A DNA stretch of 64,000 nucleotides. It comes from Cloacibacterium rupense. GTDB lineage: Bacteria > Bacteroidota > Bacteroidia > Flavobacteriales > Weeksellaceae. Within the stretch, counting starts at the first letter, position 1. Each line of letters opens with the position of its first letter. Of the stretch, positions 1,928-26,643 are shown piece after piece. The stretch spans positions 748,410 through 812,409 of the forward strand of contig NZ_BMLV01000001.1 of the NCBI RefSeq assembly GCF_014645495.1. Reading direction: 5' to 3'. The position numbers and the translations under genes were made by a program. The notes beneath the pieces are model-generated. The model ran no database searches. It was given only the letters and a program-made list of their open reading frames with translations, and was not told the origin of the DNA.

Positions 1928-3526
1928 ATGAAAAATTATTTATCTTTTTTACTACTATACTGCAGTTTATTTACATTCTCTCAAACAGAATTGGTTTTTG
2001 TCTATTTCAAAGATAAGCCCAATGCATCAATATTTATTGCTAATCCTAGCACAGAATTGTCTCAAAAATCTATTACCAGAAGAGCCAATTTAAATATTCC
2101 AATTACCGAACAAGATGCCCCGATAGAAACATCTTATATACAAAATATAGAAAACCTAGGTTTTACTGTAACAGACCAATCGAAATGGTTAAATGGCGTT
2201 GCAGTAAATGCTACAGCTACACAAATTGCTCTATTGCAATCTGAACCATATGTCTTAAAAGTAGAAAGTTTTGTGAAAAACGCTACAACTACAAGACAAA
2301 ATAGAATTTCTAAAATAGAAAAATTTCAAAATTCTGCTACAGATTTTAATTATGGAAATTCTTTGGACCAAATCAATCAAATTAATCTTAGAAGTTTACA
2401 TGTAATTGGTTTCACTGGTGCAGGCATTAGCATAGCAGTTATAGATACTGGTTTTCCTACGGTAAATACTGGCTCTGCTTTTGCTAGAATTAGAAATAAC
2501 AATCAAATAAAAGGAGGATACAACTTCATCAATAAATCTATAGACATTTACAATACAAGTCTCAATTCACATGGGACCAATTGCTTGGGAATTATCGGAG
2601 GTTATATCGATGGTAATTTTGTAGGTGCTGCTCCTGATGCAGAATTTTATCTTTACGCAACAGAAAATGCATCTGTAGAAATTCCAGAAGAAGAAATGTA
2701 TTGGATAGAAGCTGCTGAAGAAGCTGATAGACAAGGTGTAGATATTATTTCTACCTCTTTGGGATATAACACTTTTGATGATTCTAGATATGATTATCAA
2801 TATAGTGACATGACGGGTCAAAAATCATTTATTGCAAGAGCAGCAGGAATAGCCTCAGATAAAGGAATCATAGTATTAATAGCCAACGGAAACGAAGGAA
2901 ACAAAACTTGGCAATATCTTACAACCCCTGCAGATAGCCCAAAAGTTTTTAGTATTGGAGCAGTAGACAGCAATGGTAATGCTTCAGCATTTAGCTCTTT
3001 TGGCCCCAATGCAATTGGCACTGTAAAACCAGATGCTACAGCCAGAGGAACGGCTACCTATTACACTTATAATAATTCTTCCTATTCTGGAAATGGGACT
3101 TCCTATTCTACTCCACTTTCTGCAGGAGGAGTTGCATGTCTTTTGCAAGCTCTTCCTAACTCTACCAATAGAGAAAACATCAAAAATAAATTAAGACAAA
3201 CTGCATCATTATACCCTAGTTATGATAACCAAAGAGGCTACGGAGTATTGAATTTCGGAAATACACTCAATTCTCTTTTAGCCACCTCAGAGAGTATTTT
3301 AGAAAAAACTGTAAATGTTTTCCCAATTCCCGCTCAAAGCGAAATTAATATAGAAACCACTAAAAAAATAACTGGTATATCTATTTACAATACTTTAGGA
3401 CAGCTTATTAAAAATATTAATTCTAACTATAAAAAAATCAGTCTAGATTCTCTCCCGAAAGGAATTTATTATCTAAAAATCAACATTGAAAACAGCCAAG
3501 TGATTAAAAAAATTATAAAAGAATAG
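1928..3526 (+). CDS. Secreted S8 subtilisin-family protease with T9SS sorting tail
   Basis: Secreted serine protease of 532 aa. A signal peptide ends near FTFSQ (residue 19). The prodomain runs to about residue 150. The catalytic triad is visible as D173 in VIDTGFP, H215 in NSHGTNCLG and S392 in GNGTSYSTP, with the oxyanion asparagine in IANGNEG near N320. The last 70 residues, beginning VNVFPIPAQ and ending in a basic tail (KKIIKE), look like a type A C-terminal domain for the Por/type IX secretion system. The protein therefore probably crosses the outer membrane and is anchored or released at the surface. It stands alone and convergent with the next gene, whose stop is only 3 nt away. Substrate unknown. 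Confidence 0.9.
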   Translation: MKNYLSFLLLYCSLFTFSQTELVFVYFKDKPNASIFIANPSTELSQKSITRRANLNIPITEQDAPIETSYIQNIENLGFTVTDQSKWLNGVAVNATATQIALLQSEPYVLKVESFVKNATTTRQNRISKIEKFQNSATDFNYGNSLDQINQINLRSLHVIGFTGAGISIAVIDTGFPTVNTGSAFARIRNNNQIKGGYNFINKSIDIYNTSLNSHGTNCLGIIGGYIDGNFVGAAPDAEFYLYATENASVEIPEEEMYWIEAAEEADRQGVDIISTSLGYNTFDDSRYDYQYSDMTGQKSFIARAAGIASDKGIIVLIANGNEGNKTWQYLTTPADSPKVFSIGAVDSNGNASAFSSFGPNAIGTVKPDATARGTATYYTYNNSSYSGNGTSYSTPLSAGGVACLLQALPNSTNRENIKNKLRQTASLYPSYDNQRGYGVLNFGNTLNSLLATSESILEKTVNVFPIPAQSEINIETTKKITGISIYNTLGQLIKNINSNYKKISLDSLPKGIYYLKINIENSQVIKKIIKE

Positions 3527-3528
3527 AA

Positions 3529-5247
3529 TCAAATGCTTTTAAGGAATTCTATCAGGCTTTCATCTTTTTTCAGTCCAAGTTTTGATTTTATTTTACTTTT
3601 ATAAACCCGTACACTTCCATCTGTTATTTTTTCTAAAACTGATATTTCTTTGGCACTAAGGTCTAATCTAAAATAAACACAAAATTGAAGCTCCTGCTCA
3701 TTTAAAAAAGGATATTTATCTGATAGTAGTTTGATAAACTGTTTATTTTCTGCAGAACTTTCATCAGAAAAACCTATACTTTTTTTATCAATTCCTATTA
3801 GGTTGTTCATATCAAAATAAAGTTCTCTAAGAACTTGTTCTGCATTTTCAGCATCAGATTTTCTTACTTTTTTTATTTTGTCTAGAAAAACTTTTTCGGT
3901 TTCTTGTTTCAAATTAAGATTGAGATGCAGATTTTTTATCTTCTCATTTTTTATTAACAAATCTTGCTCCATCAGTTTTTTTTGTTGTTCACTGATTAGA
4001 TTTTTACTTACGAAGAGTTGCTTATCCTTCTTTCTTTTGTTGTATAATAAAATATAAGTAGCTACAAAAATTACGATAATCAAGAAAAAAGTGAAACTCA
4101 TCCAAAATATTTTTCTATTCTGCCTTTCTACTTGATAATCAAACTTTTGATTTACATTTTCAATGATATTTTTATTAAGCAAATTAGAAATTTCTGCAAA
4201 TTGCTCCTTTTTCAAATGGGCATTTTTTTCATTGAGGTCGTTTAGTTTTTGAGCGTAAAATTCTGCATCGCTAACATTACCCATTTTAAACGAATAATCT
4301 AATAAAATTGACGCAAATACTTTCTTAAATTCGTCATTATGCTCTATGTTACTTTCATATACTTTTTTTAAAAATATGATTAAATCATCTCTTTCGCGTA
4401 ACAATGATTGATTAGAGTAACAATGATACAAATTAAAAATAAGCGCAGATCTTTCATTTACTTTTTGGGGATTTAACTTTAGATAATCTAACACTTTCCC
4501 CCAGTTATACAATGTATTTTTTCTATCAGACAAATCATAATAAACCTCGCCTAAATTACTATAAACCAAATATTTAAAATCTAAAACTTCCTCAGTAATA
4601 TTTTGAATTTTGGGCAAATAAGAAAGTGATTTTTCAAATTCTTCAATACTTTTTTTGTATTGTTTTTGCTTTGCGAATACCAATCCGAAATTATTATGCA
4701 TAGATGATATGTACAAATAATCTGATGACTTGTAATGACTCAAAGCTAACCTGAAGAAATATAGCGCTTGATTATACTCTTTTAGATTAAAATACAATTT
4801 CCCTTTAAGATGGTACAAATGAGGAATTAAATTACTTTTTTTATTGTATTGAAGTTCATTTGCAATAGCTTCATTGATGTACTTAAGACTAATTTCGGAA
4901 GAAAAGCCTTCTAGATAATTAGCAATAGAATTATTAGCTTCTGTAGTGATTATTGGGTATTTGCCATTATTAAGTTTTAAAACTTCATTAGATGTGATAA
5001 AGAATTGAACCCCATTTTTTTTTAAATCATAGAAATACAAAGAAGCATATTTAAAAGCCAAAAGATAATCTTCATTTCCTGTATTTTTAAACTTTTGAAA
5101 CTCTTCCTTTCTAATTTCATTTATTACATTTTTATGGTTAATCGCTTTACTCAGTTTTAAGTTTAGCTCAATGAAATACTCATGAGGTAAATCGGCATAT
5201 AATACATTCGAAAGGAAGACTAAAAATAAAAATATTCTGTTTGGCAT
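3529..5247 (-). CDS. Membrane-anchored TPR protein with C-terminal LuxR-like HTH
   Basis: A 572-aa protein of a type common in Flavobacteriia. It has an N-terminal signal/anchor (MPNRIFLFLVFLSNVLYA), tetratricopeptide repeats over about residues 100-350, one transmembrane helix near residue 385-405 (FFLIIVIFVATYILLY), a coiled coil, and a C-terminal helix-turn-helix (about 510-572) with the phrase DLSAKEISVLEKITDGSVRVYKSKIKSKL cut here only for description. The arrangement suggests a periplasmic TPR sensor joined to a cytoplasmic DNA-binding domain. The target genes are not evident. Its stop lies 3 nt from the convergent subtilase gene. A terminator-like hairpin at 5303-5325 lies upstream on the same strand. 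Confidence 0.8.
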   Translation of the reverse strand: MPNRIFLFLVFLSNVLYADLPHEYFIELNLKLSKAINHKNVINEIRKEEFQKFKNTGNEDYLLAFKYASLYFYDLKKNGVQFFITSNEVLKLNNGKYPIITTEANNSIANYLEGFSSEISLKYINEAIANELQYNKKSNLIPHLYHLKGKLYFNLKEYNQALYFFRLALSHYKSSDYLYISSMHNNFGLVFAKQKQYKKSIEEFEKSLSYLPKIQNITEEVLDFKYLVYSNLGEVYYDLSDRKNTLYNWGKVLDYLKLNPQKVNERSALIFNLYHCYSNQSLLRERDDLIIFLKKVYESNIEHNDEFKKVFASILLDYSFKMGNVSDAEFYAQKLNDLNEKNAHLKKEQFAEISNLLNKNIIENVNQKFDYQVERQNRKIFWMSFTFFLIIVIFVATYILLYNKRKKDKQLFVSKNLISEQQKKLMEQDLLIKNEKIKNLHLNLNLKQETEKVFLDKIKKVRKSDAENAEQVLRELYFDMNNLIGIDKKSIGFSDESSAENKQFIKLLSDKYPFLNEQELQFCVYFRLDLSAKEISVLEKITDGSVRVYKSKIKSKLGLKKDESLIEFLKSI

Positions 5248-9621: not shown

Positions 9622-10590
9622 ATGAAAAAAATTCTTTTTGCAACATTCATTTTACTTTCAATCACTACTTTTTCTCAAGAAAAAAATATTGAATTCCCTG
9701 AAAAAAAAAATTTATTAAAATCGGTAGCTGAAGAAACGTGTAAGTGTATAGATTCTATCATAATTACAGACAAATCTCACGCAAAAATATCTGAAGAAAT
9801 AAGCCAATGCATCAAAAAAGAAGTAACAGCCTATCAAACTGGATTAAAACTTATAGACGCACAAAAAGAATCTGAAAAAGGTGTAAAAAAAATAAATATC
9901 AATATTCAAATGAATGAAAATTCTAATGAGTATAAGCAATATTATTATGAAATTGAAAATTATTTGAGAGATCATTGTACTTCTATGAATGATAAAATAG
10001 ACACTAATGAAAAGAAATCTCATAAATCTATTTCCACCGATTCTAAAGCAATACAATTCTACAACGATGGCATCACAGAATACAAAAACAAAAATTATGA
10101 AGTTGCTATTGTACAATTTAAAAAGGCAATAGAACAAGACTACTATTTTCCATTTGCTTGGGATAACCTGGGCATTTGTTACAGAAAATTAGGAAATTAT
10201 GACAAAGCTTTGGATGCATACCAAACTTCTTTAAAAATTGATCCTACAGGGAAAATGCCTCTTCAGAATATACCAATCATTTATATCTACAAAAAAGAAT
10301 ATCAAAAAGCGATTGATGCTTACCAAGAAATGAAAAATGTCTATTTTGATGACCCAGAAATAGAATATGGAATTGGACAAGTCTATTTTCAGTACATCAA
10401 AGATTATGAAAAATCCTTAGACTTTATCGCAAAAGCTTATAATAAATATGTGAAAATAAATTCTCCGTATAGATCAGATGCTGAATCTATTATCCAGAGT
10501 ATTTACAAAATAATGAAAGAACAAAATAAATTAGAAACCTTCCACAAGATTTTGAATCAAAACAATATCAATTTTGATGAAAAAAAATAA
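9622..10590 (+). CDS. Secreted TPR-repeat protein, function unknown
   Basis: Protein of 322 aa with a signal peptide ending near TTFSQ (residue 19). The N-terminal part (about 25-120) is lysine-rich with paired cysteines (ETCKCIDSI, QCIKKE, DHCTS), similar to other flavobacterial exported proteins. The C-terminal part (about 145-300) consists of tetratricopeptide repeats, e.g. AIQFYNDGITEYKNKNYEVA and AWDNLGICYRKLGNYDKAL. It probably acts as a periplasmic or surface protein-protein interaction scaffold. It lies between two terminators and so is a single-gene unit. No specific function can be assigned. Confidence 0.75.
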   Translation: MKKILFATFILLSITTFSQEKNIEFPEKKNLLKSVAEETCKCIDSIIITDKSHAKISEEISQCIKKEVTAYQTGLKLIDAQKESEKGVKKININIQMNENSNEYKQYYYEIENYLRDHCTSMNDKIDTNEKKSHKSISTDSKAIQFYNDGITEYKNKNYEVAIVQFKKAIEQDYYFPFAWDNLGICYRKLGNYDKALDAYQTSLKIDPTGKMPLQNIPIIYIYKKEYQKAIDAYQEMKNVYFDDPEIEYGIGQVYFQYIKDYEKSLDFIAKAYNKYVKINSPYRSDAESIIQSIYKIMKEQNKLETFHKILNQNNINFDEKK

Positions 10591-12805: not shown

Positions 12806-14338
12806 TCAAAAAAAACTTAATATCGTTTTTACAATACTGAAAATACTAAGAGCCATTACTAAAACCCCGACCGCAATAAACATATATTTTGGCGCTACTT
12901 TAGAAGTAAGTCTTGCAGAAAATGGTGCGGTTATGATTCCTCCAATCAATAAACCTAATACGATATTCCAATGATGGATGCCTATAGTGTAGATAAAAGC
13001 TACAGCACTTGCTACAGTAAGAATAAATTTTGCTACGGTAGAGCTTCCAACTACATATCTTGGGGTATAACCATTTTTGATTAATGTACCTGTAACAAAA
13101 GGTCCCCAACCGCCTCCAGTAAAGGAATCTATAAAGCCACCAAAAACACCTAGCACTTTGAAGTTTGCTTTCTTTTTAGGGTATTTTACATTGGCTTTCT
13201 TTAACACTGAATTTTGAAAAATCTTGAATCCTAAATATAAGGTATAAAGTGATATTATCGGTTTTACATATTTTGCATAGCCTTCACCCAAAAAAGAAAT
13301 AGCTGCAACTCCTATTACCACACCTAAAATAGCAGGAATTACGAGTTTTTTCACCATATTTTTATTGACATTTTTCAGTTTGTAATGACTGATGCTTCCT
13401 GCCAAAGAAGTAAAAGATTCTGCAGAATGTATACTAGCCGTTACAATGTGAGGCGCTATTCCAAAACTCAATAATATCGTAGTACAGATTACTCCATAGC
13501 CCATCCCGACAGAACCGGCCACTACTTCTGCCACAAAACCTGTAAACATCATCCAAAGAAAACGGTTGTTATCTTTATTCAGCAATAATGAAATATCTGA
13601 CCAAAGATTAAAATATTTTATCATAAAAAAGCCTGAAACCAAAACCAACAAACCACCCATAATCAAGAGTGTATTGTTTACTATTCTTCTGGCCCTTTTT
13701 ACCACCAAAATAGACTTTTCGAACTGAGAAATATCCGAAATATATTTATCAAAATCCTCTGGATGAGTTGAAAGATTTTCAGTGACTTTATTTAGAATTT
13801 TTACTTTAGTTTTAAAATCTCCAGACAATTGATTTCTCAATTTATTCATATTTAAAATCAAGTAATCTAATTGGTCTGGCAAAGAATGCTCTAACGTTTC
13901 TTTTAATCTTTTGGCAATGGTTGGTGATTTTCCATTCGTAGAAATGGCAATTTTTAGATTTCCTTTGTTAACAATAGAGCCTAAATAAAAATCGCACAAA
14001 TCTGGTTGGTCTGCGGCATTTACCAAAATTTTTCTCGCATTCGCCAATTTTTTAATTTCAGCATTTACTTCTTTGATATTGGTTGCTGCAATTACAAAAT
14101 CTACACCCTCTAAATCTGTTTCATCAAAGAGTTTCTCCTTCAAAGTAACATTAGAATTTTGGACAGATATATCTCTAACTTCATCTAAAAATTCTGGAGA
14201 AACTATGGTAATTTTCACCTCAGGATTTTGATTGAGGAGTGTCTCTGTTTTTTCTAGACCTATATTCCCACCTCCTACAATCAAGAAGTGGGCTTGTTCT
14301 GTTTTTAGAAATATAGGGAATAATGTATTGCTGCTCAT
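12806..14338 (-). CDS. Fusion: Met8/SirC-like precorrin-2 dehydrogenase + TauE/SafE permease
   Basis: A 510-aa two-part protein. Residues 1-about 215 match the siroheme-synthase N-terminal unit (Met8/SirC/CysG-N): the NAD loop VGGGNIGLEK at 21-30, NAADQPDLCDF near 107-117, and ISTNGKSPTIAKRLKE near 132-147. This domain oxidises precorrin-2 to sirohydrochlorin and may insert iron. Residues about 220-510 form a TauE/SafE (TSUP) membrane permease with several helices and the repeat motif GFVAEVVAGSVGMGYG. TSUP proteins move sulfite, sulfonates or related anions. Placed last in the sulfate-reduction locus, 4 nt after the TonB receptor gene, the fusion joins siroheme supply for CysI to sulfur-anion transport at the inner membrane. 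Each half looks intact, and no frameshift signs were seen. Confidence 0.88.
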   Translation of the reverse strand: MSSNTLFPIFLKTEQAHFLIVGGGNIGLEKTETLLNQNPEVKITIVSPEFLDEVRDISVQNSNVTLKEKLFDETDLEGVDFVIAATNIKEVNAEIKKLANARKILVNAADQPDLCDFYLGSIVNKGNLKIAISTNGKSPTIAKRLKETLEHSLPDQLDYLILNMNKLRNQLSGDFKTKVKILNKVTENLSTHPEDFDKYISDISQFEKSILVVKRARRIVNNTLLIMGGLLVLVSGFFMIKYFNLWSDISLLLNKDNNRFLWMMFTGFVAEVVAGSVGMGYGVICTTILLSFGIAPHIVTASIHSAESFTSLAGSISHYKLKNVNKNMVKKLVIPAILGVVIGVAAISFLGEGYAKYVKPIISLYTLYLGFKIFQNSVLKKANVKYPKKKANFKVLGVFGGFIDSFTGGGWGPFVTGTLIKNGYTPRYVVGSSTVAKFILTVASAVAFIYTIGIHHWNIVLGLLIGGIITAPFSARLTSKVAPKYMFIAVGVLVMALSIFSIVKTILSFF

Positions 14339-17244: not shown

Positions 17245-17655
17245 TTATTTGGAGAGTTCTGCTATAGTTTTGTTAAGAATAGGCAATGTAGCATCTCTTA
17301 CTTCGGTAAATAATAACTTAATACTACAGGTTTCTTCATCTATGCAATCTTCACATTTCTGATAATAATTAACCGAAACACAATTCATCATAGATATAGG
17401 ACCATCTATAAACCTTAGAATTTCGGCAACAGAAATTTCGTGAGGTGCTTTTAAAAAAGAATAGCCACCCTCTGCTCCTCTTTCGCTTTTAAGAATCTTA
17501 TTCTGTTTAAGTTCTCTAAGAATGGTCTCTAAAAACTTATAAGGAATTTTTTCTTTCGCTGAAATCAATTTCGCTGAAACAGGTTTATTCGCTTCGACAT
17601 TTTTCGAAATAAAAATCAAAGCTTTGATGGCATATTTTACTTTTTTTGAAAGCAT
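17245..17655 (-). CDS. Rrf2-family transcriptional regulator, probable sulfur/cysteine regulator
   Basis: Winged-helix Rrf2 regulator of 136 aa. The ATG at 17655 gives the family-typical opening MLSKKVKYAIKALIF. An upstream TTG at 17676 overlaps the predicted -7 box and is unlikely. The HTH covers about residues 25-60 with the wing motif SERGAEGGYSFLK. Cysteines near the C-terminus (NCVSVNYYQKCEDC and ETCS) resemble the Fe-S ligands of IscR/NsrR types but in a different spacing. Rrf2 members such as CymR control cysteine metabolism in Firmicutes. Placed inside the sulfate-reduction locus between cysI and the TonB receptor gene, this is the obvious candidate local regulator. Effector and sites are unproven. 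Confidence 0.85.
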   Translation of the reverse strand: MLSKKVKYAIKALIFISKNVEANKPVSAKLISAKEKIPYKFLETILRELKQNKILKSERGAEGGYSFLKAPHEISVAEILRFIDGPISMMNCVSVNYYQKCEDCIDEETCSIKLLFTEVRDATLPILNKTIAELSK

Positions 17656-17657
17656 AA

Positions 17658-17705
17658 TTTTGGTAATACTTTTCAAAAATACAAAATATCCTAAATCTTT
17701 AACAA
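17658..17705 (-). promoter_or_regulatory. Promoter of the Rrf2 gene with possible operator
   Basis: Minus-strand TATTTTTG (17674-17681) is a -7 box with TTG at 17703-17705 (21-nt spacing). AGTATTACCAAAAT (minus, about 17657-17670) sits at the predicted transcription start, where a repressor would block. TTACCAAAATTAT here differs by one base from TTACCAAAAGTAT at the cysH operon promoter. Confidence 0.5.
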
Positions 17706-17719
17706 AACTTCAACTCTTT

Positions 17720-19363
17720 TTAATTAAAATACTTTCGATAAGCAAAATCCCCGAAATGTTCTCCTGCTTGTTTTTCTTTTACATATTGCCCAAACAAATG
17801 ATCCACTTCATCTAAAATCTCTTGCTCTGAAAGTTTTTCTTTATACAATTTATTGAGTCTTAATCCGTATCTATCTCCACCCAACATAAAATTATACTGT
17901 TCTGCTGCCGTTCCTATAAAACCTAATTCTGCCACGTAAGGTCTACCGCAACCATTAGGGCAACCCGTCATTCTGATAGAAATTTCATGTTCCGAAAGTC
18001 CGTGTTTTTCTAAAATAGGTTCTATTTTTGTTACCAATTCTGGCAAATATCTTTGAGCTTCAGCTAGAGCAAGCGGACAAGTTGGCAATGCTACACATGC
18101 CATAGAACTTTTCCTCATCGGCGAAACATTCTTTTCAATTTCAAATTTTTCTAATAATTCTTCAATTTTTTTCTTATCAATTTCAGAAACATTACCAATA
18201 ATCAAATTCTGATTTCCTGTGAAGATGAAATTACTTAAATTAAGATTCGCCACTTCTAATAAGAAAGCTTTTTGATAAGGTTTTACCACGCCGTGTTCTA
18301 CAAAAAGGGTGTAATACCATTTTCCATCTGCGCTTTGTTCCCAACCGTAACGGTCATTTCTTTCGGTAAATTGATAGGGTTTTGCAGGTTCTAGTTTGAA
18401 ACCAATTCGTTTTTCTAATTCTTCTTTGAAACCTTCTACCGTCAATCTTTCGATGGTGTATTTTAATCTAGACAATTTTCTGTCTGCTCTGTTCCCGAAA
18501 TCTCTTTGAATGGTTAAAACTTCGTAAACTGCTTTCAATGTTTTTTCTTCGGTATCTAAAAACCCGAGTACATTTCCCAAACGTGGAAAAGTAGCAGCAT
18601 TACCGTGAGTAGTGCCCAAACCACCACCAACAACTAAGTTGAAGCCTTTCAATTCATCATTTTCGATAATGGCAATCAGTCCTAAATCGTTGGTGAACAA
18701 ATCCACATCATTGCTTGGTGGAATTGCTATTGCAATTTTGAACTTTCTCGGTAAATAACGGTCTTCGTACAAAGGATCTGCTTCTGCGGAACGTTCGTAG
18801 ATTTTTTCTCCGTCTATAAAAACCTCGTAATAAGCTTTGGTTTTTGGCAAAAGTAATTTCGAAATTTTATCTGCATACTCGTGAACCTGATGATGAATGG
18901 GCGACAATTGCGGATGCGAACTGGCAATCACATTTCTATTCACATCACCACAAGCTGCAATGGAATCTAGTTTTGCGGTATTAAACGCTTGAATCGTAGG
19001 TCTAATTTGATGTTTCAAAATCCCGTGAAGTTGCACCGTTTGTCTGGTGGTAATTTTAAGAGTTCCTGTACCAAATTCTTCTGAAACTTGGTGTAATGCT
19101 TGCCATTGTTCCGCCGAAATTGCTCCACCCGGAATTCTGAGACGAATCATAAAAGAATACAATTTGTCTAATTTTTTAGCGGCTCTTTCTGCTCTTTTAT
19201 CACGGTCGTCTTGCACATACATTCCGTGGAATTTTACCAATGCTTCATCGTCTGGACGAACATTTCCGGTGTGATTATCAAGTTCTATACTTTCTTTCAA
19301 CGTACCTCTCAGTCCGTCGCTTTTCATTTTTATGTGTTCTATTGGAGATAATTTATCGCTCAT
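17720..19363 (-). CDS. cysI: Assimilatory sulfite reductase, siroheme/Fe-S subunit
   Basis: Siroheme and [4Fe-4S] subunit (547 aa) that reduces sulfite to sulfide by six electrons taken from the CysJ flavoprotein. N-terminal ferredoxin-like half-domain includes MIRLRIPGGAISAEQW near residue 70 and TTRQTVQLHGI near 103. The cluster/siroheme cysteines are in VALPTCPLALAEAQR and TGCPNGCGRPYVAE (C-X5-C then C-X3-C pattern) near residues 435-480. The gene follows cysJ after a 142-nt repeat-rich spacer and precedes the Rrf2 gene by about 64 nt on the same strand. Nitrite reductases share the fold, but the cysJ, cysH and cysDN neighbours decide for sulfite. Confidence 0.93.
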   Translation of the reverse strand: MSDKLSPIEHIKMKSDGLRGTLKESIELDNHTGNVRPDDEALVKFHGMYVQDDRDKRAERAAKKLDKLYSFMIRLRIPGGAISAEQWQALHQVSEEFGTGTLKITTRQTVQLHGILKHQIRPTIQAFNTAKLDSIAACGDVNRNVIASSHPQLSPIHHQVHEYADKISKLLLPKTKAYYEVFIDGEKIYERSAEADPLYEDRYLPRKFKIAIAIPPSNDVDLFTNDLGLIAIIENDELKGFNLVVGGGLGTTHGNAATFPRLGNVLGFLDTEEKTLKAVYEVLTIQRDFGNRADRKLSRLKYTIERLTVEGFKEELEKRIGFKLEPAKPYQFTERNDRYGWEQSADGKWYYTLFVEHGVVKPYQKAFLLEVANLNLSNFIFTGNQNLIIGNVSEIDKKKIEELLEKFEIEKNVSPMRKSSMACVALPTCPLALAEAQRYLPELVTKIEPILEKHGLSEHEISIRMTGCPNGCGRPYVAELGFIGTAAEQYNFMLGGDRYGLRLNKLYKEKLSEQEILDEVDHLFGQYVKEKQAGEHFGDFAYRKYFN

Positions 19364-19505
19364 AATTTAAAGTTTGAGGTGGTTTGAAATTGTTTGGTAT
19401 TGTTTGAAATGGTTTGACTTTGTTTGATGTTGTTTGAATGAGTTTGATTTACACCTTTCTGCTTCCATCTTCCATCTTCCAGCATCCATCATCTAACATC
19501 CATCA
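19364..19505. repeat. Spacer of imperfect short repeats between cysJ and cysI
   Basis: Two low-complexity blocks. At about 19370-19451 the unit GTTTGA recurs roughly nine times at about 11-nt steps (e.g. GGTTTGAAATT, GTTTGAAATG). At about 19460-19504 CATCTTCCA/CATCCATCAT-like units recur. No reading frame or clear hairpin was seen. Similar short intergenic repeats occur in many Bacteroidetes genomes, as I recall. Confidence 0.7.
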
Positions 19506-21206
19506 TTAGTAAACATCTTTCAGAAATCTGCCTTGGTTTTCTAATTCTTCTACTACTGTTTTTGCTTGTTCTACAGAAATATTTCGTTGGGTAGAAATTA
19601 CTTCTACAATCGTGTTTTCCACATCTTTGCTCATAGGTTCTTTTTGTCCGCACAAGTAGATGTAAGCTCCATTTTCAATCCAAGAATTAAATTCTCTTGC
19701 ATTTTCTTTAATTCTATCTTGTACATAGATTTTTTTTTCTTGGTCACGTGAAAAAGCAGTACTCAATTTGGTTAAAACCCCTGTACTCAACCATTCCTGA
19801 ATTTCGGTTTGGTAATAAAAATCAAGCGTAAAGTGCTGTTCACCAAAGAACAACCAATTTTTACCTTCTGCTCCGTTGGCATCTCTTCCTGCTAAAAAGC
19901 TTCTGAAAGGCGCAATTCCCGTTCCTGGACCAATTAAAATAATGTCTTTGTCATCTTCTGGCAATCTGAAATTTTCGTTTTTATGAATGTAAAATTCAAA
20001 TTCTTGATTTAGAGGAAAATCTGCAAAATATTGTGAAGCAAAACCAGTTTTTTTCTCGTCATTTGCATTAAATTTATTAAGGTTTACCGTTAAATGAACT
20101 TCGCCATCGTGTGCTTCAGAAGAAGATGAAATAGAATACAATCTAGGCGCAACAGGCAACAAAATTTCTAGAATTTTTTGGAATGAATTTGATTCTAATT
20201 TTGGAGTTTTAATGCTTTTTAAAACATCTATCAAATCTGCTTTTTCCCAAATGTTTTCAAATGGTAAAACTTCTGATATTAAATCTAAAGAACGCTTGCT
20301 TAATCCTTTAATATTTCTAAGTTCTAACCAATCAAAAACTGTTTTTGTTTCATTTTTAATGGCAATTTCATCATTACTTTTTGCATCGAAATAATTGATA
20401 ATGAAATCAATATCTTCTTTAGAATTTTTAGGAATAATTCCGAGCGCATCACCAGGTTGGTACGCAATTTCATCATCTGAAATAATTTCTAAATGATAGG
20501 TTTCTTTGTTAGAACCTGTATCATTCAGCACAATTTTATGTTTGATTATGCCTTTGTAATTCTTTTTATGAGGAATAATCTGAACAGAATGAGCAACCTT
20601 AGTTTCACTTTTAACTCCAGAAAACAAATTCTGTAAATCTTTTTGCCAAGCTTCTACCAAAGGATTGAAATCTACATCTGCTTTTACCAAAGGCAATAAT
20701 CTTTTAGCTCCTTTTTCTTCCAAAACCTCATCTAGAAGTCTTCCTGCTTCGCAGAAAAGAGGGTAAGAACTATCTCCCAAACCAAAAACAGCGTAAGAAA
20801 GTTGATTAAGATTTACATTAGAAGATTTCAGTTTTTCATAAAAATCTTTGGCATTCAGAGGAAGTTCGCCTTCGCCTTGGGTGCTGATGATGAAAAGAAT
20901 TAAAGTTTCTTTTTCTAGTTTTTTTACATCAAACTGAAAAATATCTACAGATTTTGCATTGATTTTTTCCTTTTTGAAATTAGCCTGAAGTTTTGAAGCT
21001 ACTTTTTTGGCATTTCCTGTTTCCGTTCCATAAACGATGAGTGGTTTTACATTGATTAAAGGAACAGAAGTATTTTCTATTTTAAGATTTCCTTCGCTAG
21101 ATTTTGCAATGTAACCCGCCAAAAATCCTTTAGAATAGATTAATTCTTCGTAAGTGGCGTTAGAAACCAATTGTTGCAATAGGTTTTGTTTAGTATCAGA
21201 TAGCAT
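19506..21206 (-). CDS. cysJ: Sulfite reductase flavoprotein subunit
   Basis: NADPH-dependent diflavin reductase (566 aa) that feeds electrons to CysI. The start ATG at 21206 (MLSDTKQNLLQQL) overlaps the end of cobA by 11 nt. A longer frame to 21272 would overlap cobA further and adds no recognisable sequence. A flavodoxin domain (about 50-190) has VYGTETGNAKKVA and STQGEGELPLNAKDFYEKL. The FAD domain has PRLYSISSSSEAH, and the NADPH domain has IGPGTGIAPFRSFLAGR and YLCGQKEPMSKDVE. All cofactor motifs look intact. Translational coupling with cobA ties siroheme methyltransfer to sulfite reduction. Confidence 0.92.
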   Translation of the reverse strand: MLSDTKQNLLQQLVSNATYEELIYSKGFLAGYIAKSSEGNLKIENTSVPLINVKPLIVYGTETGNAKKVASKLQANFKKEKINAKSVDIFQFDVKKLEKETLILFIISTQGEGELPLNAKDFYEKLKSSNVNLNQLSYAVFGLGDSSYPLFCEAGRLLDEVLEEKGAKRLLPLVKADVDFNPLVEAWQKDLQNLFSGVKSETKVAHSVQIIPHKKNYKGIIKHKIVLNDTGSNKETYHLEIISDDEIAYQPGDALGIIPKNSKEDIDFIINYFDAKSNDEIAIKNETKTVFDWLELRNIKGLSKRSLDLISEVLPFENIWEKADLIDVLKSIKTPKLESNSFQKILEILLPVAPRLYSISSSSEAHDGEVHLTVNLNKFNANDEKKTGFASQYFADFPLNQEFEFYIHKNENFRLPEDDKDIILIGPGTGIAPFRSFLAGRDANGAEGKNWLFFGEQHFTLDFYYQTEIQEWLSTGVLTKLSTAFSRDQEKKIYVQDRIKENAREFNSWIENGAYIYLCGQKEPMSKDVENTIVEVISTQRNISVEQAKTVVEELENQGRFLKDVY

Positions 21207-22017
21207 TTTGATAGTTTGTTTTGTGATTATCGAAATAAGAGTTTCCAGATTTTTTTTCCTCGAACCAAGCAAATTGATGATGCAAGTTCACCACATTTCC
21301 GATGATGATAAGCGTAGGAACGTATTCAAATTCTGGTAGAGATTGAGATTTAATTTCCTCGAAAGAGAAAACCTGCGTTTTTTGTTCTGGAGTGGTCGCT
21401 TGTTGAACCACCGCAATCGATTTTGAGCCTTCAATCCCAAATTCAATCAATTTTTGAGTGATATTTTCTAGTTTTTGTCCGCTCATATAAAACACCAAGG
21501 TATCTTCTGTAGTTGCCCAATCTTGCCACTGATGAAGGGTTACAAATTTGAAATCATACAGCGTAAGAAACCTCACTCCTCTAGAATATTCTCTGGCAGT
21601 AAGCGGAATACCTGTGTAAGCCGCAGCGCCAAAAGCAGCAGAAACTCCGGGAATAATTTCGTAGGAAATTTGGTGTTCTTTTAAAATTTGAAGTTCATCC
21701 AAAATATTTGAAAAAAGGCTGGCATCGCCACCTTTTAGGCGAAGCACCAATTTCCCTTGTTTGGCAAAATGCACCATCAAATTGTTGATGTCTTTTTGGG
21801 GAGTCCAAATTCCTTTAGAACATTGCTTGCCAACGTACACAATTTCTGCTTTTTCGGAAGCGTATTCTTCTATCAACTCTGGCGAAACCAATCTGTCGGT
21901 AAGAATGACTTCCGCTTTTTGAAGGTACTTTAAAGCCTTCAAACTGATAAGTTCTGGATCGCCTGGTCCTGCACCTGCCAAAACCACTTTTCCTGTATTT
22001 TGAATTAAACTTTTCAT
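21196..22017 (-). CDS. cobA: Uroporphyrinogen-III C-methyltransferase
   Basis: S-adenosylmethionine-dependent methylase (273 aa) that converts uroporphyrinogen III to precorrin-2, the first step to siroheme. SAM-binding GAGPGDPELISLKALKYL opens the protein (residues 15-33). LRLKGGDASLFSN near 93 and EIIPGVSAAFGAAAYTGIPLT near 120 are family blocks. It lacks the CysG N-terminal domain, which is instead supplied by the fusion protein at 12806-14338. It overlaps cysJ by 11 nt. Other SUMT relatives (cobalamin pathway) are less likely given the sulfate-reduction neighbours. Confidence 0.93.
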   Translation of the reverse strand: MKSLIQNTGKVVLAGAGPGDPELISLKALKYLQKAEVILTDRLVSPELIEEYASEKAEIVYVGKQCSKGIWTPQKDINNLMVHFAKQGKLVLRLKGGDASLFSNILDELQILKEHQISYEIIPGVSAAFGAAAYTGIPLTAREYSRGVRFLTLYDFKFVTLHQWQDWATTEDTLVFYMSGQKLENITQKLIEFGIEGSKSIAVVQQATTPEQKTQVFSFEEIKSQSLPEFEYVPTLIIIGNVVNLHHQFAWFEEKKSGNSYFDNHKTNYQNAI

Positions 22018-22147
22018 AAATTTTGTATAAATTTTTGCATAAAATCTCCTCCGCCTTATCGAAAACGATATGGTAAAAACTTGATTATCTGTAAGTTAAA
22101 GATTAATTAAAAAGTCTGCTAACTCTATTTTTTAGTCTAATCTTTTC

Positions 22148-22245
22148 GCAGCCCGACCTGAGTGGAGCTCTCCCGAAAAAATATTTTTTTTAAATTTTAA
22201 AAAATATTTTTTCGGGAAGCGGGAACGGAGGGCGGAATAGCTGCC
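22148..22245. repeat. Long palindromic intergenic element, possibly REP-like
   Basis: Between cysK and cobA. The core is a perfect 18-bp inverted repeat, CCCGAAAAAATATTTTTT (22172-22189) with its complement at 22199-22216, and a 9-nt loop. Conserved-looking flanks are GCAGCCCGACCTGAGTGGAG on the left and GGGAACGGAGGGCGG on the right, and outer GCAGC/GCTGC can also pair. Its GC-rich flanks stand out from the AT-rich spacer. I recall similar hairpins dispersed in flavobacterial genomes. Only this copy is present in the window. Confidence 0.7.
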
Positions 22246-22284
22246 CAAAAAATCATAAATTACTAGCTAACAGACTTTTAAGAA

Positions 22285-23193
22285 TTAGAACAATCCTTCG
22301 ATGGAAAGATAACGTTCTCCTGTATCGTAATTGAAAGTTAGAATCTGAGCGTCATCTGGTAAAGTCTCTGCTTTTTTGGCAACCGCTGCTAAAGAAGCAC
22401 CTGTGGAAATCCCTACTAAAATCCCTTCTTTTTTGGCAATTTCTCTGGCATATTCGAAAGCCTCGTCTTTGCTCACTTGAATAACTTCGTCTATTAAATC
22501 TGAGCGATAAACATCTGGTACAAAACCTGCTCCAATCCCTTGAATTGGATGCGGTCCGGGCGCACCTCCGCTTAAAACAGGAGATAATTCTGGTTCTACG
22601 GCAATCACTTTAAGATTTGGGAATTTTTCTTTCAAAACAGCAGCAACCCCTGTAATGTGGCCACCAGTCCCAACTCCTGTGATAATATAATCTAATCCGT
22701 CTGGAAAATCTGCCAAAATCTCTTGAGCGGTAGTTCTTTTGTGAACTTCTACATTAGCTTGATTTGCAAATTGTGATGGCGACCAAGCATTTGGTGTATT
22801 GGCAACCAATTCTGCGGCTCTTTCTATAGCGCCTTTCATTCCTTTTTCACGTGGGGTAAGGTCGAATTCTGCACCATAAATTTCCATTAATTTTCTACGC
22901 TCTACACTCATAGATTCTGGCATTACCAAAATTACTTTGTAACCTTTAACCGCAGCTACTAAAGCCAAGCCGATACCTGTGTTACCCGAAGTTGGTTCTA
23001 TGATTACACTATCTGAGTTTAAAAGTCCTTTAGCTTCTGCATCTTCTATCATTGCCAATGCAATACGGTCTTTGATGCTGTTACCTGGATTGGTTCTTTC
23101 TAATTTGATGAAAACATTTTTATTGCCGTATAATTTGTTGATTTTAACGACTGGAGTGTTTCCGATGGTTTCTAAAATGTTACTTGCTTTCAT
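22285..23193 (-). CDS. cysK: Cysteine synthase (O-acetylserine sulfhydrylase)
   Basis: PLP enzyme (302 aa) that combines O-acetylserine and sulfide to cysteine, the last step of the pathway encoded here. The PLP lysine is in [17 protein letters not shown]-type sequence near residue 40 (K in SIKDR). The substrate loop [12 protein letters not shown] is near 66, and the phosphate-binding [10 protein letters not shown] near 174. The lack of a C-terminal CBS extension excludes cystathionine beta-synthase. It follows cysN by 109 nt. A TACCAAAA motif lies in that gap (23210-23230). A separate promoter is not clear. CysK versus CysM type was not resolved. Confidence 0.92.
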
Positions 23194-23302
23194 ATTTTTT
23201 ATTTTTCTATTTTTTGGTACTAAAAAATCTTTACATAAAGCTTAGCTCTATGCTATTATAAATTGTAATAATGTATCTAATTCTAAGTTTTTCTTAAATT
23301 GT

Positions 23303-24535
23303 TTAAAGGAACATTAATGCTCCTACGGTGTTGAAGCTGGTTTCGTCTATTAAAATGGCGCTTCCTGATTTTGGATTTTTCTCGAAAGTGTCATAAAATA
23401 ATGGTTGACTGGTTTTTAATGTAACTTGTGCAATATCATTGAGTTGAACTGCATCTCCATCCGTAAATTGCCATTGATTAACGTTCCATTTTCTATTAAT
23501 TTGTTGCACTTTTACTCTCACATTTTTGAATCTGTGTTGTAATAAATACGTTTTACCAACTTGTAACGAATTGTTATCTAACCAAGAAATCCAAGTGTTG
23601 ATTTGGTTGTCTTCTTTTGGCAATTGATTGCTGAGAACTACAGTGTCTCCACGGCTGATGTCTATATCATTTTCGAAATGTAACACTACATTGTCACCTG
23701 CTATTACTTCCGAAACATCTTTTAAATCTTTTTCTATTTTCACTAAAGTTGTTTCTATTTTAGCAGGCAAAATGGTTACTTTGTCTCCAACTTTGTAGCT
23801 TCCGCTCAAGATTTGCCCTGCATAACCTCTGTAATCGTGGTTGTCTTCATCTTTTGGCCTGATTACCCATTGCACTTGGAATCTTGCTTCTAAATCTTCC
23901 GTTCCGTCTAATTCTACAGTTTCTAAAGTTTGAAGAATAGATTTCCCGTTGTACCAAGGTGTATTTTCAGAAGTGGTAACTACGTTATCTCCTACCAATG
24001 CACTTACCGGAATGTAGATAATTTCGTTGTAATTCAATTCAGATTTTATGGCTTCGAAATCATTTTTTATTTGGTTAAAAACTTCTTCGGAATAGTTTAA
24101 TAAATCTATTTTATTAATGGCGATTATTGCTTTTTTAATTCCCATTAAAGAGCCTACACTTGCGTGTCTTTTGGTTTGGTCTGTAATTCCGTTTCGGGCA
24201 TCAACTAGAACAATGATTAAATCTGAGTTGGAAGCACCAGTAATCATATTTCTAGTGTATTGTTCGTGACCAGGTGCATCTGCAATGATAAATTTTCTTT
24301 TAGAAGTAGAGAAATATTTGTACGCAACATCTATTGTAATTCCTTGTTCACGCTCTGCACGAAGGCCGTCTGTAATTAAAGATAAATCTATATCTACACC
24401 TTCTTGCTTGGTTTGTTTTTGTAAAACACCCAATTGGTCTGTATGTATGCTGTCAGAATCATAGAGAAGTCTTCCGATTAAGGTACTTTTGCCATCATCT
24501 ACGTTTCCTGCGGTTATAAATCTTAATGTATTCAT
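23303..24535 (-). CDS. cysN: Sulfate adenylyltransferase subunit 1 (GTPase)
   Basis: GTP-hydrolysing regulatory subunit (410 aa) of ATP sulfurylase, which with CysD makes APS from sulfate and ATP. EF-Tu-like motifs: GNVDDGKSTLIGRLL (residues 10-24), the DAPGHEQY switch region near 90, and NKID near 145. Beta-barrel domains follow. There is no C-terminal APS kinase (CysC) domain, unlike the bifunctional NodQ/CysNC form. That agrees with the APS-type CysH encoded just upstream. A 73-nt gap with short GAGTTTCG repeats separates it from cysD. Confidence 0.93.
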   Translation of the reverse strand: MNTLRFITAGNVDDGKSTLIGRLLYDSDSIHTDQLGVLQKQTKQEGVDIDLSLITDGLRAEREQGITIDVAYKYFSTSKRKFIIADAPGHEQYTRNMITGASNSDLIIVLVDARNGITDQTKRHASVGSLMGIKKAIIAINKIDLLNYSEEVFNQIKNDFEAIKSELNYNEIIYIPVSALVGDNVVTTSENTPWYNGKSILQTLETVELDGTEDLEARFQVQWVIRPKDEDNHDYRGYAGQILSGSYKVGDKVTILPAKIETTLVKIEKDLKDVSEVIAGDNVVLHFENDIDISRGDTVVLSNQLPKEDNQINTWISWLDNNSLQVGKTYLLQHRFKNVRVKVQQINRKWNVNQWQFTDGDAVQLNDIAQVTLKTSQPLFYDTFEKNPKSGSAILIDETSFNTVGALMFL

Positions 24536-24537
24536 TT

Positions 24538-24580
24538 TTTTATGAGTTTCGAGTTTCGTGATACGAGTTTCGACTTAATT
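24538..24580. repeat. Short GAGTTTCG repeats between cysD and cysN
   Basis: GAGTTTCGAGTTTCG, then CGAGTTTCG again after TGATA, in a 73-nt spacer. Low complexity. No terminator or start signal was seen in it. Confidence 0.5.
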
Positions 24581-24608
24581 ATTAATTTAAAATTTTGAAT
24601 ATTTGATA

Positions 24609-25514
24609 TTAAAAGTACCCTTGTTTTTTACGGTCTTCCATTGCAGCTTCCGAAAGTTGATCATCTAATCTTGTTTGTCCTCTTTCGCTAATTCTGGTTT
24701 GGATAATATCTTCAATAATGTCATCAATTGTAGAAGCTTCAGAAGGCACTGCTGCGGTACAAGTCATATCTCCAACGGTTCTGTATCTTACTTTTTCAAT
24801 CACCACTTCGTCACCTTCTTGAGGTTGAATAAACGCCGAAGTTGCCACTAATTTATCTTGAAACTTAATACATTCTCTATTGTGAGAGAAATACAAATTC
24901 GGCAATTCTATATTGTATTTTTTGATGTAATTCCAGATGTCTAACTCCGTCCAATTGCTAATTGGGAAGACTCTTACATTATGACCTTTTTGTACTTTTC
25001 CGTTAAGGATATTCCACAGTTCGGGTCTTTGAAGTTTTGGGTCCCAAGCTCCGAAATCGTCTCTTACAGAGAAAATTCTTTCTTTGGCTCTGGCTTTTTC
25101 TTCGTCTCTTCTTGCGCCGCCAATACAAGCGTCAAATTCATTTTCTTCGATGGTGTCTAAAAGAGTGTAAGTTTGAAGAGAATTTCTAGAAGGGAATCTA
25201 CCGCCAGTTTCTTTTAAATTATATTTTTTGATGCTGTCTTCTACATAACCCACTACCAATTTTTCTCCAATTTTTTCTACCAATTCATCTCTGAATTCTA
25301 AAGCTTCAGGGAAATTATGACCTGTGTCTATATGCACCAAAGGAAAAGGAAATTTACCTGGGCGAAACGCCTTCAACGCTAAATGTACCAACACGATGGA
25401 ATCTTTACCTCCCGAGAAAAGCAAAGCTGGCTTTTCGAACTGCGCCGCTGTTTCTCTTAAAATATAAATTGCTTCGTTTTCTAATTGCTCTAAATAATCT
25501 ACTGTATTGCTCAT
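24609..25514 (-). CDS. cysD: Sulfate adenylyltransferase subunit 2
   Basis: Catalytic subunit (301 aa) of ATP sulfurylase, of the PP-loop ATP pyrophosphatase fold. The ATG at 25514 gives MSNTVDYLEQLENEAIYIL, the usual flavobacterial opening. An ATG at 25532 abuts the cysH stop and would add six residues (MQKKIK), so it is a weaker choice. The PP-loop is LLFSGGKDSIV near residue 35. ARRDEEKARAKERIFS near 140 is a CysD signature. It is co-transcribed with cysH (18-nt gap) and cysN. Confidence 0.93.
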   Translation of the reverse strand: MSNTVDYLEQLENEAIYILRETAAQFEKPALLFSGGKDSIVLVHLALKAFRPGKFPFPLVHIDTGHNFPEALEFRDELVEKIGEKLVVGYVEDSIKKYNLKETGGRFPSRNSLQTYTLLDTIEENEFDACIGGARRDEEKARAKERIFSVRDDFGAWDPKLQRPELWNILNGKVQKGHNVRVFPISNWTELDIWNYIKKYNIELPNLYFSHNRECIKFQDKLVATSAFIQPQEGDEVVIEKVRYRTVGDMTCTAAVPSEASTIDDIIEDIIQTRISERGQTRLDDQLSEAAMEDRKKQGYF

Positions 25515-25532
25515 TTTAATTTTTTTCTGCAT

Positions 25533-26225
25533 TTATTGATGTAAACCACATTCTTTTTTAGATTGATCTTCCCACCACCATCTTCCAGCTCGGAAATCTT
25601 CGCCTTCTTTTACCGCTCTAGTGCAAGGTGCACAACCAATACTTATGAAACCTTTGTGATGAAGCGTATTGTAAGGAACTCCTTTTTGTTGTAAGTATGC
25701 TACCACGTCATCGGTTGACCAGTTCATCAAAGGATTGAATTTGTATAACTGATGCGCTTCATCCCATTCTACCAATTTCATTGTTTGTCTATTAGGCGAT
25801 TGCTCTGCTCTAAGTCCTGTAATCCATACATTTGCACCTTGTAAAGCTCTATTTAATGGTTGAACTTTTCTGATATTACAACATTCTTTTCTAAGTTCTA
25901 CACTGTTATAAAAACCATTAATTCCGTTGTCTGAAACATATTTTTCTATGTTTGAAGCTTCTGGATAAAAAGGTTTTATTTTGTTTCCAAATTTTAGATT
26001 GGTTTTATCCCAAACTTCATAAGTTTCTGGGAAAAGTCTGCCAGTATCTAGTGTAAAAACCTCTATATTTTCTAATTGATTACTAAAAATTTCGTTGGTA
26101 ATCACTTGATCTTCTATTCCGAAACTGGTAGAAAAAACAATTTTCCCTTTTAATTGTTCATTCAAGATTTTTAAATTTTCCTGAACTGAATTGTTCTCAT
26201 TGAGTAATTTTAATACTTCTTCCAT
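25533..26225 (-). CDS. cysH: Adenylylsulfate (APS) reductase, CysH family
   Basis: Reduces activated sulfate to sulfite in the cytoplasm using thioredoxin (230 aa). The paired-cysteine motifs for a [4Fe-4S] cluster are present, ECCNIRKVQPL near residue 130 and GCAPCTRAVKEGED near 195. The catalytic cysteine is at the C-terminus in KKECGLH. The CC...CxxC pattern marks the APS-reducing type rather than the PAPS-only enterobacterial type, which fits the absence of cysC. The PP-loop region reads VFSTSFGIEDQV near residue 30. First gene of the operon, it begins 13 nt after an attenuator terminator, so its expression is set by the leader at 26238-26643. Confidence 0.93.
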   Translation of the reverse strand: MEEVLKLLNENNSVQENLKILNEQLKGKIVFSTSFGIEDQVITNEIFSNQLENIEVFTLDTGRLFPETYEVWDKTNLKFGNKIKPFYPEASNIEKYVSDNGINGFYNSVELRKECCNIRKVQPLNRALQGANVWITGLRAEQSPNRQTMKLVEWDEAHQLYKFNPLMNWSTDDVVAYLQQKGVPYNTLHHKGFISIGCAPCTRAVKEGEDFRAGRWWWEDQSKKECGLHQ

Positions 26226-26298: not shown

Positions 26299-26412
26299 CT
26301 ATAGACCATAAGAAATAGGAGCTTCCAAAGAAACTTTACAACAACAAACCATCATACACATTGCTGTGAAGCTGTATTTTGGGTTATTAAAAGTAAAATC
26401 TTTTGTATTCAT
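26299..26412 (-). CDS. Leader peptide B, Cys-rich (37 aa), second attenuator module
   Basis: Short ORF from ATG 26412 to TAG 26299. It opens MNTKDFTFNNPKYSF and contains TAMCMMVCCCKVS, with Cys at positions 19, 23, 24 and 25. It has no signal peptide or known domain. Four RNA strands can be drawn: AGCUUC (26373-26368, codons 14-15) can pair with GAAGCU (26325-26320, codons 30-31), and GGAAGCUCCUAUUU (26326-26313) can pair at 12 of 14 positions with AAAUAUUGGCUUCU (26275-26262), which includes the 5' arm of terminator B. The second strand starts 11 nt after the last Cys codon. Expected role: ribosome stalling at Cys codons when charged tRNA-Cys is low allows read-through into cysH. Ends 73 nt before cysH. 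Confidence 0.8.
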   Translation of the reverse strand: MNTKDFTFNNPKYSFTAMCMMVCCCKVSLEAPISYGL

Positions 26413-26464
26413 TTCGTTTCTAATTTCTATTTTCTTAATTTCTGTGTAAAATTACTAATTTTTA

Positions 26465-26505
26465 AAACAAAAAAGACTCCTTAATCATAAAATTAAGGAG
26501 TCTTT
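26465..26505 (-). terminator. Attenuator terminator A
   Basis: A perfect 14-bp stem (26472-26485 with 26492-26505) and 6-nt loop, giving AAAGACUCCUUAAU with its complement, then UUUUUUGUUUU in the minus-strand transcript. It lies between leader ORF A and leader ORF B and ends no long gene. Confidence 0.88.
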
Positions 26506-26540
26506 CTTGAAAATATTTTTTGTTAAATCTATATCAATAT

Positions 26541-26553
26541 AAGAAATTCTCCT
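26541..26553 (-). promoter_or_regulatory. Antiterminator strand of module A
   Basis: AGGAGAAUUUCUU begins 12 nt after the last Cys codon of leader A. It can pair with AAGAAAGACUCCU (26508-26496) at 11 of 13 positions (a 2x2 A-A/A-G mismatch in the middle), which destroys terminator A. CCUCU (26565-26561) can instead pair with AGAGG (26555-26551) when no ribosome is stalled. Confidence 0.75.
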
Positions 26554-26604
26554 CTAGTTAAGAGGACAACAGCACATTGCGATATTTGATATAATTTGTT
26601 TCAT
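26554..26604 (-). CDS. Leader peptide A, MKQIISNIAMCCCPLN (16 aa), first attenuator module
   Basis: Short ORF from ATG 26604 to TAG 26554, first in the cysH-operon transcript. Codons 11-13 are TGC TGT TGT. The predicted -7 box ends at 26614, so the mRNA would begin only about 3-7 nt before the ATG, making the ORF close to leaderless. The Cys codons are followed by a small hairpin, an antiterminator strand and a strong terminator in the order of a trp-type attenuator. Peptide function is expected to be regulatory only, through stalling when Cys-tRNA is scarce. Found only by reading short frames, as it is far below usual gene-calling limits. Confidence 0.82.
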   Translation of the reverse strand: MKQIISNIAMCCCPLN

Positions 26605-26613
26605 TTTGTGTTG

Positions 26614-26643
26614 CAAATATATAATTAATTTTAAACAAAACAA
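26614..26643 (-). promoter_or_regulatory. Promoter of the cysH operon
   Basis: Minus-strand TTG (26641-26643), exactly 19 nt, then TATATTTG (26614-26621), a good Bacteroidetes -33/-7 pair. Upstream on the plus strand ATTACCAAAAGTAT (26681-26694) resembles the motif at the Rrf2 gene start. Confidence 0.72.

Follow-up and report, generated by a model that had tools for sequence, protein, structure and literature searches.

The sulfate-assimilation operon and its leader region

The window analysed here, a 64,000-nt stretch of Cloacibacterium rupense DNA, carries on its minus strand the operon cysH-cysD-cysN-cysK-cobA-cysJ-cysI (17720-26225), whose products lead from sulfate to cysteine:

25533..26225 (-), cysH, phosphoadenylyl/adenylyl-sulfate reductase, first gene of the operon (family assignment)
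24609-25532 (-), cysD (family assignment)
23303-24535 (-), cysN (family assignment)
22285-23193 (-), cysK (family assignment)
21196-22017 (-), cobA (family assignment)
19506-21272 (-), cysJ-like gene (family assignment)
17720-19363 (-), cysI-like gene (identified from its own sequence; no family named)

An Rrf2-type gene follows cysI (17245-17676). Near the operon, an ORF at 12806-14338 resembles a siroheme synthase NAD-binding domain at its start and a TauE-type membrane exporter over the remainder; from its sequence it is an apparent fusion.

The gene upstream of the leader region is divergently oriented. Ahead of cysH lie two modules, each with a short cysteine-rich ORF, a candidate antiterminator strand and a predicted intrinsic terminator:

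26614..26643 (-), Bacteroidota-type promoter motif of module A: TTG at 26643-26641, 19 nt, TATATTTG at 26621-26614
26554..26604 (-), leader ORF A, MKQIISNIAMCCCPLN and stop, 16 codons, ATG at 26604, TAG at 26554
26566..26574 (-), control codons TGC TGT TGT, Cys 11-13 of leader A (direct reading)
26550..26566 (-), 1:2 hairpin UCCUCU/AGAGGA of leader A (folding; free transcript structure -16 kcal/mol)
26541..26553 (-), strand 2, antiterminator A, AGGAGAAUUUCUU (pairing and folding)
26496..26508 (-), strand 3, AAGAAAGACUCCU, overlapping the 5' arm of terminator A (pairing and folding)
26464..26505 (-), intrinsic terminator A: hairpin 26505-26472 and U-tract, -18.7 kcal/mol
26412-26237 (-), module B, predicted second cysteine attenuator, between module A and cysH
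26299..26412 (-), leader ORF B, MNTKDFTFNNPKYSFTAMCMMVCCCKVSLEAPISYGL and stop; Cys codons at 26358-26356 and 26346-26338, in the run CMMVCCC
26319..26327 (-), antiterminator strand B, UGGAAGCUC, 10 nt past the last Cys codon
26237..26268 (-), intrinsic terminator B: hairpin 26268-26245 and U8, -11.7 kcal/mol, ending 11 nt before cysH

The CCC of leader A denotes three cysteine codons, not proline, and in one relative (L007) TGT and TGC are exchanged synonymously among the control codons. Several elements of module A had been proposed beforehand in a sequence-only reading. Direct reading of the minus strand confirms that 26553-26541 pairs with 26508-26496 at 11 of 13 positions. The proposed terminator at 26505-26472 does have 14 perfect pairs, to which we add a G-U pair (the minimum-free-energy stem, with outer A-U pairs, reaches 19 bp), and the small CCUCU/AGAGG hairpin across the end of the ORF was found at 26565-26561/26555-26551, spanning the TAG. 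The antiterminator duplex of module A, taken alone, has an energy of -9.4 kcal/mol, where shuffled sequences average -5.5 (P=0.04), and that of module B -8.9 kcal/mol (P=0.04-0.05 against shuffles). Two traits of trp-type attenuators are present at this locus: predicted intrinsic terminators lie between the leader ORFs and the first gene of the operon, and the cysteine runs of the leaders agree with cysteine as the operon's product.

The promoter motif was called with the Bacteroidota consensus given in PMC9723704. Its box ends 9-10 nt ahead of the leader ATG, which places the expected start ~0-6 nt before the ATG and makes the transcript near-leaderless. A TTG exactly 19 nt before TAnnTTTG also occurs in L010, L011, L014, L015, L018, L019, L089 and L090. 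No promoter motif was found in the 90 nt preceding module B of the window; elsewhere, just one TAnnTTTG, without TTG, lies upstream of a module B (L015). Because the promoter motif precedes module A only, units A and B appear to share one transcript.

We also searched the same genome for other cysteine leaders. The pattern TGYTGYTGYN{4,30}RGAGG, which is narrow and misses units like module B, identified module A only; seven further hits were judged to be coincidental or to fall in coding sequence. The leader DNA also has weak matches at other sites in this genome, one in a promoter region and one of 31 nt inside leuD, neither of them taken for a leader. In the window (26401-26371) and in L004, 31 nt close to the start of leader B match leuD of the same genome at 90%, which may reflect chance or insertion of a fragment.

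Masked folding of the leader transcripts

We folded the leaders in silico with E. coli trpL as a positive control, assuming in the masks a ribosome footprint of 15 nt behind and 12 nt ahead. Transcripts were cut at the end of the terminator 5' arm and masked as free, stalled on the Cys codons or at the stop codon. In module A, upstream pairing of the terminator arm was 0.04 in the free transcript, 0.60 when stalled and 0.03 at the stop; the corresponding values for trpL were 0.33, 0.62 and 0.01. These values support two earlier proposals, namely that the small hairpin can keep the antiterminator strand paired when no ribosome stalls, and that a ribosome at the TAG would cover this strand while a stalled one would leave it free. 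The stall-minus-stop difference of module A was 0.56 as compared with 0.05 for shuffled spacers (P=0.01). Over 17 modules the mean difference was 0.37, against 0.098 ± 0.042 for shuffled spacers, with little or no difference in L018 A, L090 A and B and L013 B under the same model. Module B of the window paired at 0.81 when stalled and 0.64 at the stop (P=0.22 in this simple stall-versus-stop model), and its antiterminator pairing without a ribosome was 0.65-0.80; unlike module A, module B shows no restoration of termination by a 1:2 hairpin.

At full length, the equilibrium fold of leader A is the terminator under any mask, the stalled one included, an outcome that the sequence-only reading had named as telling against a switch. 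Full-length trpL under the stalled mask, however, gives the terminator at 0.95. Since trpL too yields the terminator only, equilibrium folding at full length is an invalid test; the terminator wins there because the choice in attenuation is made before transcription reaches the 3' arm, and truncated transcripts of module A do switch. In path estimates (saddle values taken as units of 0.01 kcal/mol), the barrier for escape from antiterminator to terminator was ~5.0 and 5.3 kcal/mol in modules A and B, respectively, and 5.8 kcal/mol in trpL.

Cysteine leaders of related cysH operons

Relatives of cysH were taken from named genomes, from 299 genomes of the genus with the Flavobacterium-type relatives and from the window's own family. 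Of the 160 loci scanned, 33 carry cysteine-rich leaders, all with an intrinsic terminator downstream. Removal of near copies left 26 loci with 48 modules (22 loci had two scored units), from Flavobacterium and several Weeksellaceae, and all 48 scored leaders combine cysteine runs with an intrinsic terminator; L012 has a second unit, shorter and with a break in its U-tract, that was added by hand. The first switch is kept in many Flavobacterium species.

This conservation bears on one alternative, that plain terminators and chance short ORFs share a long intergenic region. Strong terminators can serve many roles, and the equilibrium fold is the terminator in every state. Yet only 0.0016 short CCC ORFs are expected in the 493-nt intergenic region, where two are observed, and two together arose in 0 of 5000 dinucleotide shuffles of that region. 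The arrangement recurs in the 26 non-redundant loci, the U-tract of terminator A lies on the minus (leader) strand only, and, because the upstream gene is divergent, there is no upstream transcript to terminate. We therefore give this alternative almost no credence.

Among relatives the leaders occupy the same position and their peptides diverge widely, while the cysteine runs stay, at a near-fixed distance from the antiterminator strand. This strand begins a median of 11 nt past the last Cys codon (12 if counted 1-based; 48 modules), the place expected for the leading edge of a stalled ribosome, and the offset falls within 6-20 nt in 94% of modules against 27% of shuffles. The antiterminator duplex reached P<0.05 against shuffles in 35 of the 48 non-redundant modules; as the modules share ancestry, a P value combined over them is not a true probability. 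Coevolution of antiterminator and terminator arms was also considered, and cross-species swaps ranked a module's own partner anywhere from 1 to 12 of 15. We make no claim of coevolution because many arms share a CUCCU/CCUCU core.

The near-fixed distance between Cys codons and upstream complements also argues against a mechanism of the mycobacterial kind. Mycobacterial polycysteine sORFs are reported to act by translation attenuation, and leader A resembles them in being near-leaderless and cysteine-rich. Leader ORF B ends 73 nt ahead of cysH. By analogy, stalling or passage of a ribosome on the cysteine leader would alter access to the cysH start, with the hairpins incidental. Against this stand the hairpin and U-tract terminators of both modules, which recur in relatives, the position of terminator A >230 nt ahead of cysH, and the use of signals other than Shine-Dalgarno in Bacteroidota translation initiation (PMC9723704). 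We consider such a mechanism improbable here.

Methionine is enriched around the cysteine runs. Of the 304 residues other than Cys that lie no more than two positions from a cysteine, 91 are Met, as compared with 20 of 709 elsewhere, a count that overstates independence because the modules are related. A Met so placed occurs in 36 of 48 modules, in runs such as MMMCMCC and ACMMMMCCM. The Met codons may thus be control codons as well, so that shortage of either amino acid would open the gates, which would extend rather than exclude sensing of cysteine. Leader A of the window has a single Met by its run (MCCC), L007 has none there, and in some leaders Met is absent from the surroundings of Cys; we regard dual sensing as a serious possibility that falls somewhat short of probable.

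Cysteine-rich short ORFs with no terminator occur in four further loci, three from Flavisolibacter and one that is likely due to chance. In the former (L022, L023 and L053, ~3506-3871) a SAM-I riboswitch (RF00162) precedes the leader ORF, which precedes cysH; the ORF has two poly-Cys runs (for example CCCCCC...CCC) and no terminator was found after it, giving two sulfur sensors in a row. A metabolite riboswitch or T-box in the window itself would have precedent in these riboswitches ahead of Flavisolibacter leaders and in the control of sulfur genes by such elements elsewhere. Rfam covariance models at the gathering score, however, matched only a tRNA in the window and nothing in L006, L013, L014 and L090, which makes this explanation very improbable.

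On the CysH tree, leader presence is strongly clustered and the tandem label requires 4 changes, compared with 18.3 when labels are shuffled. The smallest well-supported branch uniting all tandem rows (support 98/91) also holds three single-unit and eight leaderless rows, seven of the latter in one Empedobacter-type subclade. Because this branch includes single-unit and leaderless rows, the sequences suggest that the tandem form was probably ancestral on it and lost later. At the threshold used, cysH was found in only two of seven genomes of the window's genus, and the nearest CysH outside the genus come from Flavobacterium-type genomes; on these grounds, operon and leader may have arrived together by horizontal transfer. 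The contig of L008 is labelled Limnohabitans (Pseudomonadota) and carries a Flavobacterium-type cysH with a leader nearly identical to that of F. covae; it is probably misbinned.

Proposed mechanism and known attenuators

Taken together, the sequence elements and the folding models make it very probable that the sulfate-assimilation operon is preceded by trp-type, ribosome-mediated transcription attenuators, two in series, that sense charged tRNA-Cys. The sequence-only reading had placed a full 1:2, 2:3, 3:4 layout in about 140 nt; that layout is upheld by sequence, masked folding and relatives, but these 140 nt are not the whole switch, as a second predicted cysteine attenuator lies downstream. 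When cysteine is plentiful, the leading ribosome would translate past the Cys codons, reach the stop and there cover the antiterminator strand; if the leader carries no ribosome, that strand would be kept paired in the 1:2 hairpin. In either case the terminator would form and transcription would end. When cysteine is scarce, shortage of Cys-tRNA would stall the ribosome on the Cys codons with its front edge just short of the antiterminator strand, which, thus freed, would capture the terminator 5' arm before the 3' arm is made. Transcription would then read through to module B, where the same decision would be taken again just ahead of cysH. In this scheme the leaders would be translated, and two serial gates would steepen the response. 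Tentatively, and as something possible rather than probable, the units might form a two-stage sulfur-amino-acid gate in which serial attenuators each read Cys and Met codons and full readthrough needs both stalls, making the response steep and AND-like. Such a gate would have persisted across most of one cysH-operon clade, and is also found as a single unit before a differently organized rrf2-cysH operon.

Trp-type attenuation is classical, and module A shares with E. coli trpL the 1:2, 2:3, 3:4 layout, an antiterminator that is predicted to be free only on a control-codon stall, the response to ribosome masks and a similar escape barrier. It differs in reading Cys instead of Trp, in having two serial units and a near-leaderless first ORF, and in belonging to Bacteroidota. 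The two ORFs of the Salmonella mgtCBR leader each answer a different signal, whereas both units here are predicted cysteine sensors. Tandem attenuators are known for mgtCBR, and the likeness lies in a single leader that carries two short ORFs and is subject to attenuation (PMC3641672). The uORFC-8-2 motif of the Rhodobacterales cysS leader, a predicted cysteine attenuator, likewise has a short ORF with two tandem Cys codons followed by an intrinsic terminator, but it is a single unit of other structure that controls cysteinyl-tRNA synthetase in Alphaproteobacteria (PMC8632094). The cys leaders of Actinobacteria, mycobacteria included, also place a Cys run before sulfate/cysteine genes; no terminators were found in the actinobacterial leaders (PMC1262725), in contrast to the intrinsic terminators and antiterminators of both modules here. 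Within the same order, a study of F. psychrophilum notes hints that amino-acid biosynthesis operons are preceded by leader-peptide attenuation, and its main text mentions neither cysH nor sulfate and describes no tandem cysteine unit (PMC9723704). In the open-access literature searched we found no description of tandem cysteine attenuators, or of any cysteine attenuator in Bacteroidota. The tandem form in this phylum thus seems undescribed there, an absence that lends weak support to novelty.

For Bacteroidota, these leaders indicate at the level of sequence how cysteine supply can be coupled to sulfate assimilation, and their numerous natural variants could be used to find out what a second attenuator of similar kind contributes. 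Operons headed by a leader and those headed by Rrf2 provide a natural comparison. The lower-identity cysH loci examined from Flavobacterium and the family (L146-L164) have an Rrf2 regulator gene upstream and mostly no cysteine leader. Ahead of the rrf2-cysH operon of L146 stands a lone Cys/Met leader, MRINNLNMVMCMCKCFSKEE, accompanied by AAGAGGAG (cysH strand, 9650-9790) and by a terminator of the form CTCCTT...AAGGGGC plus a U-tract.
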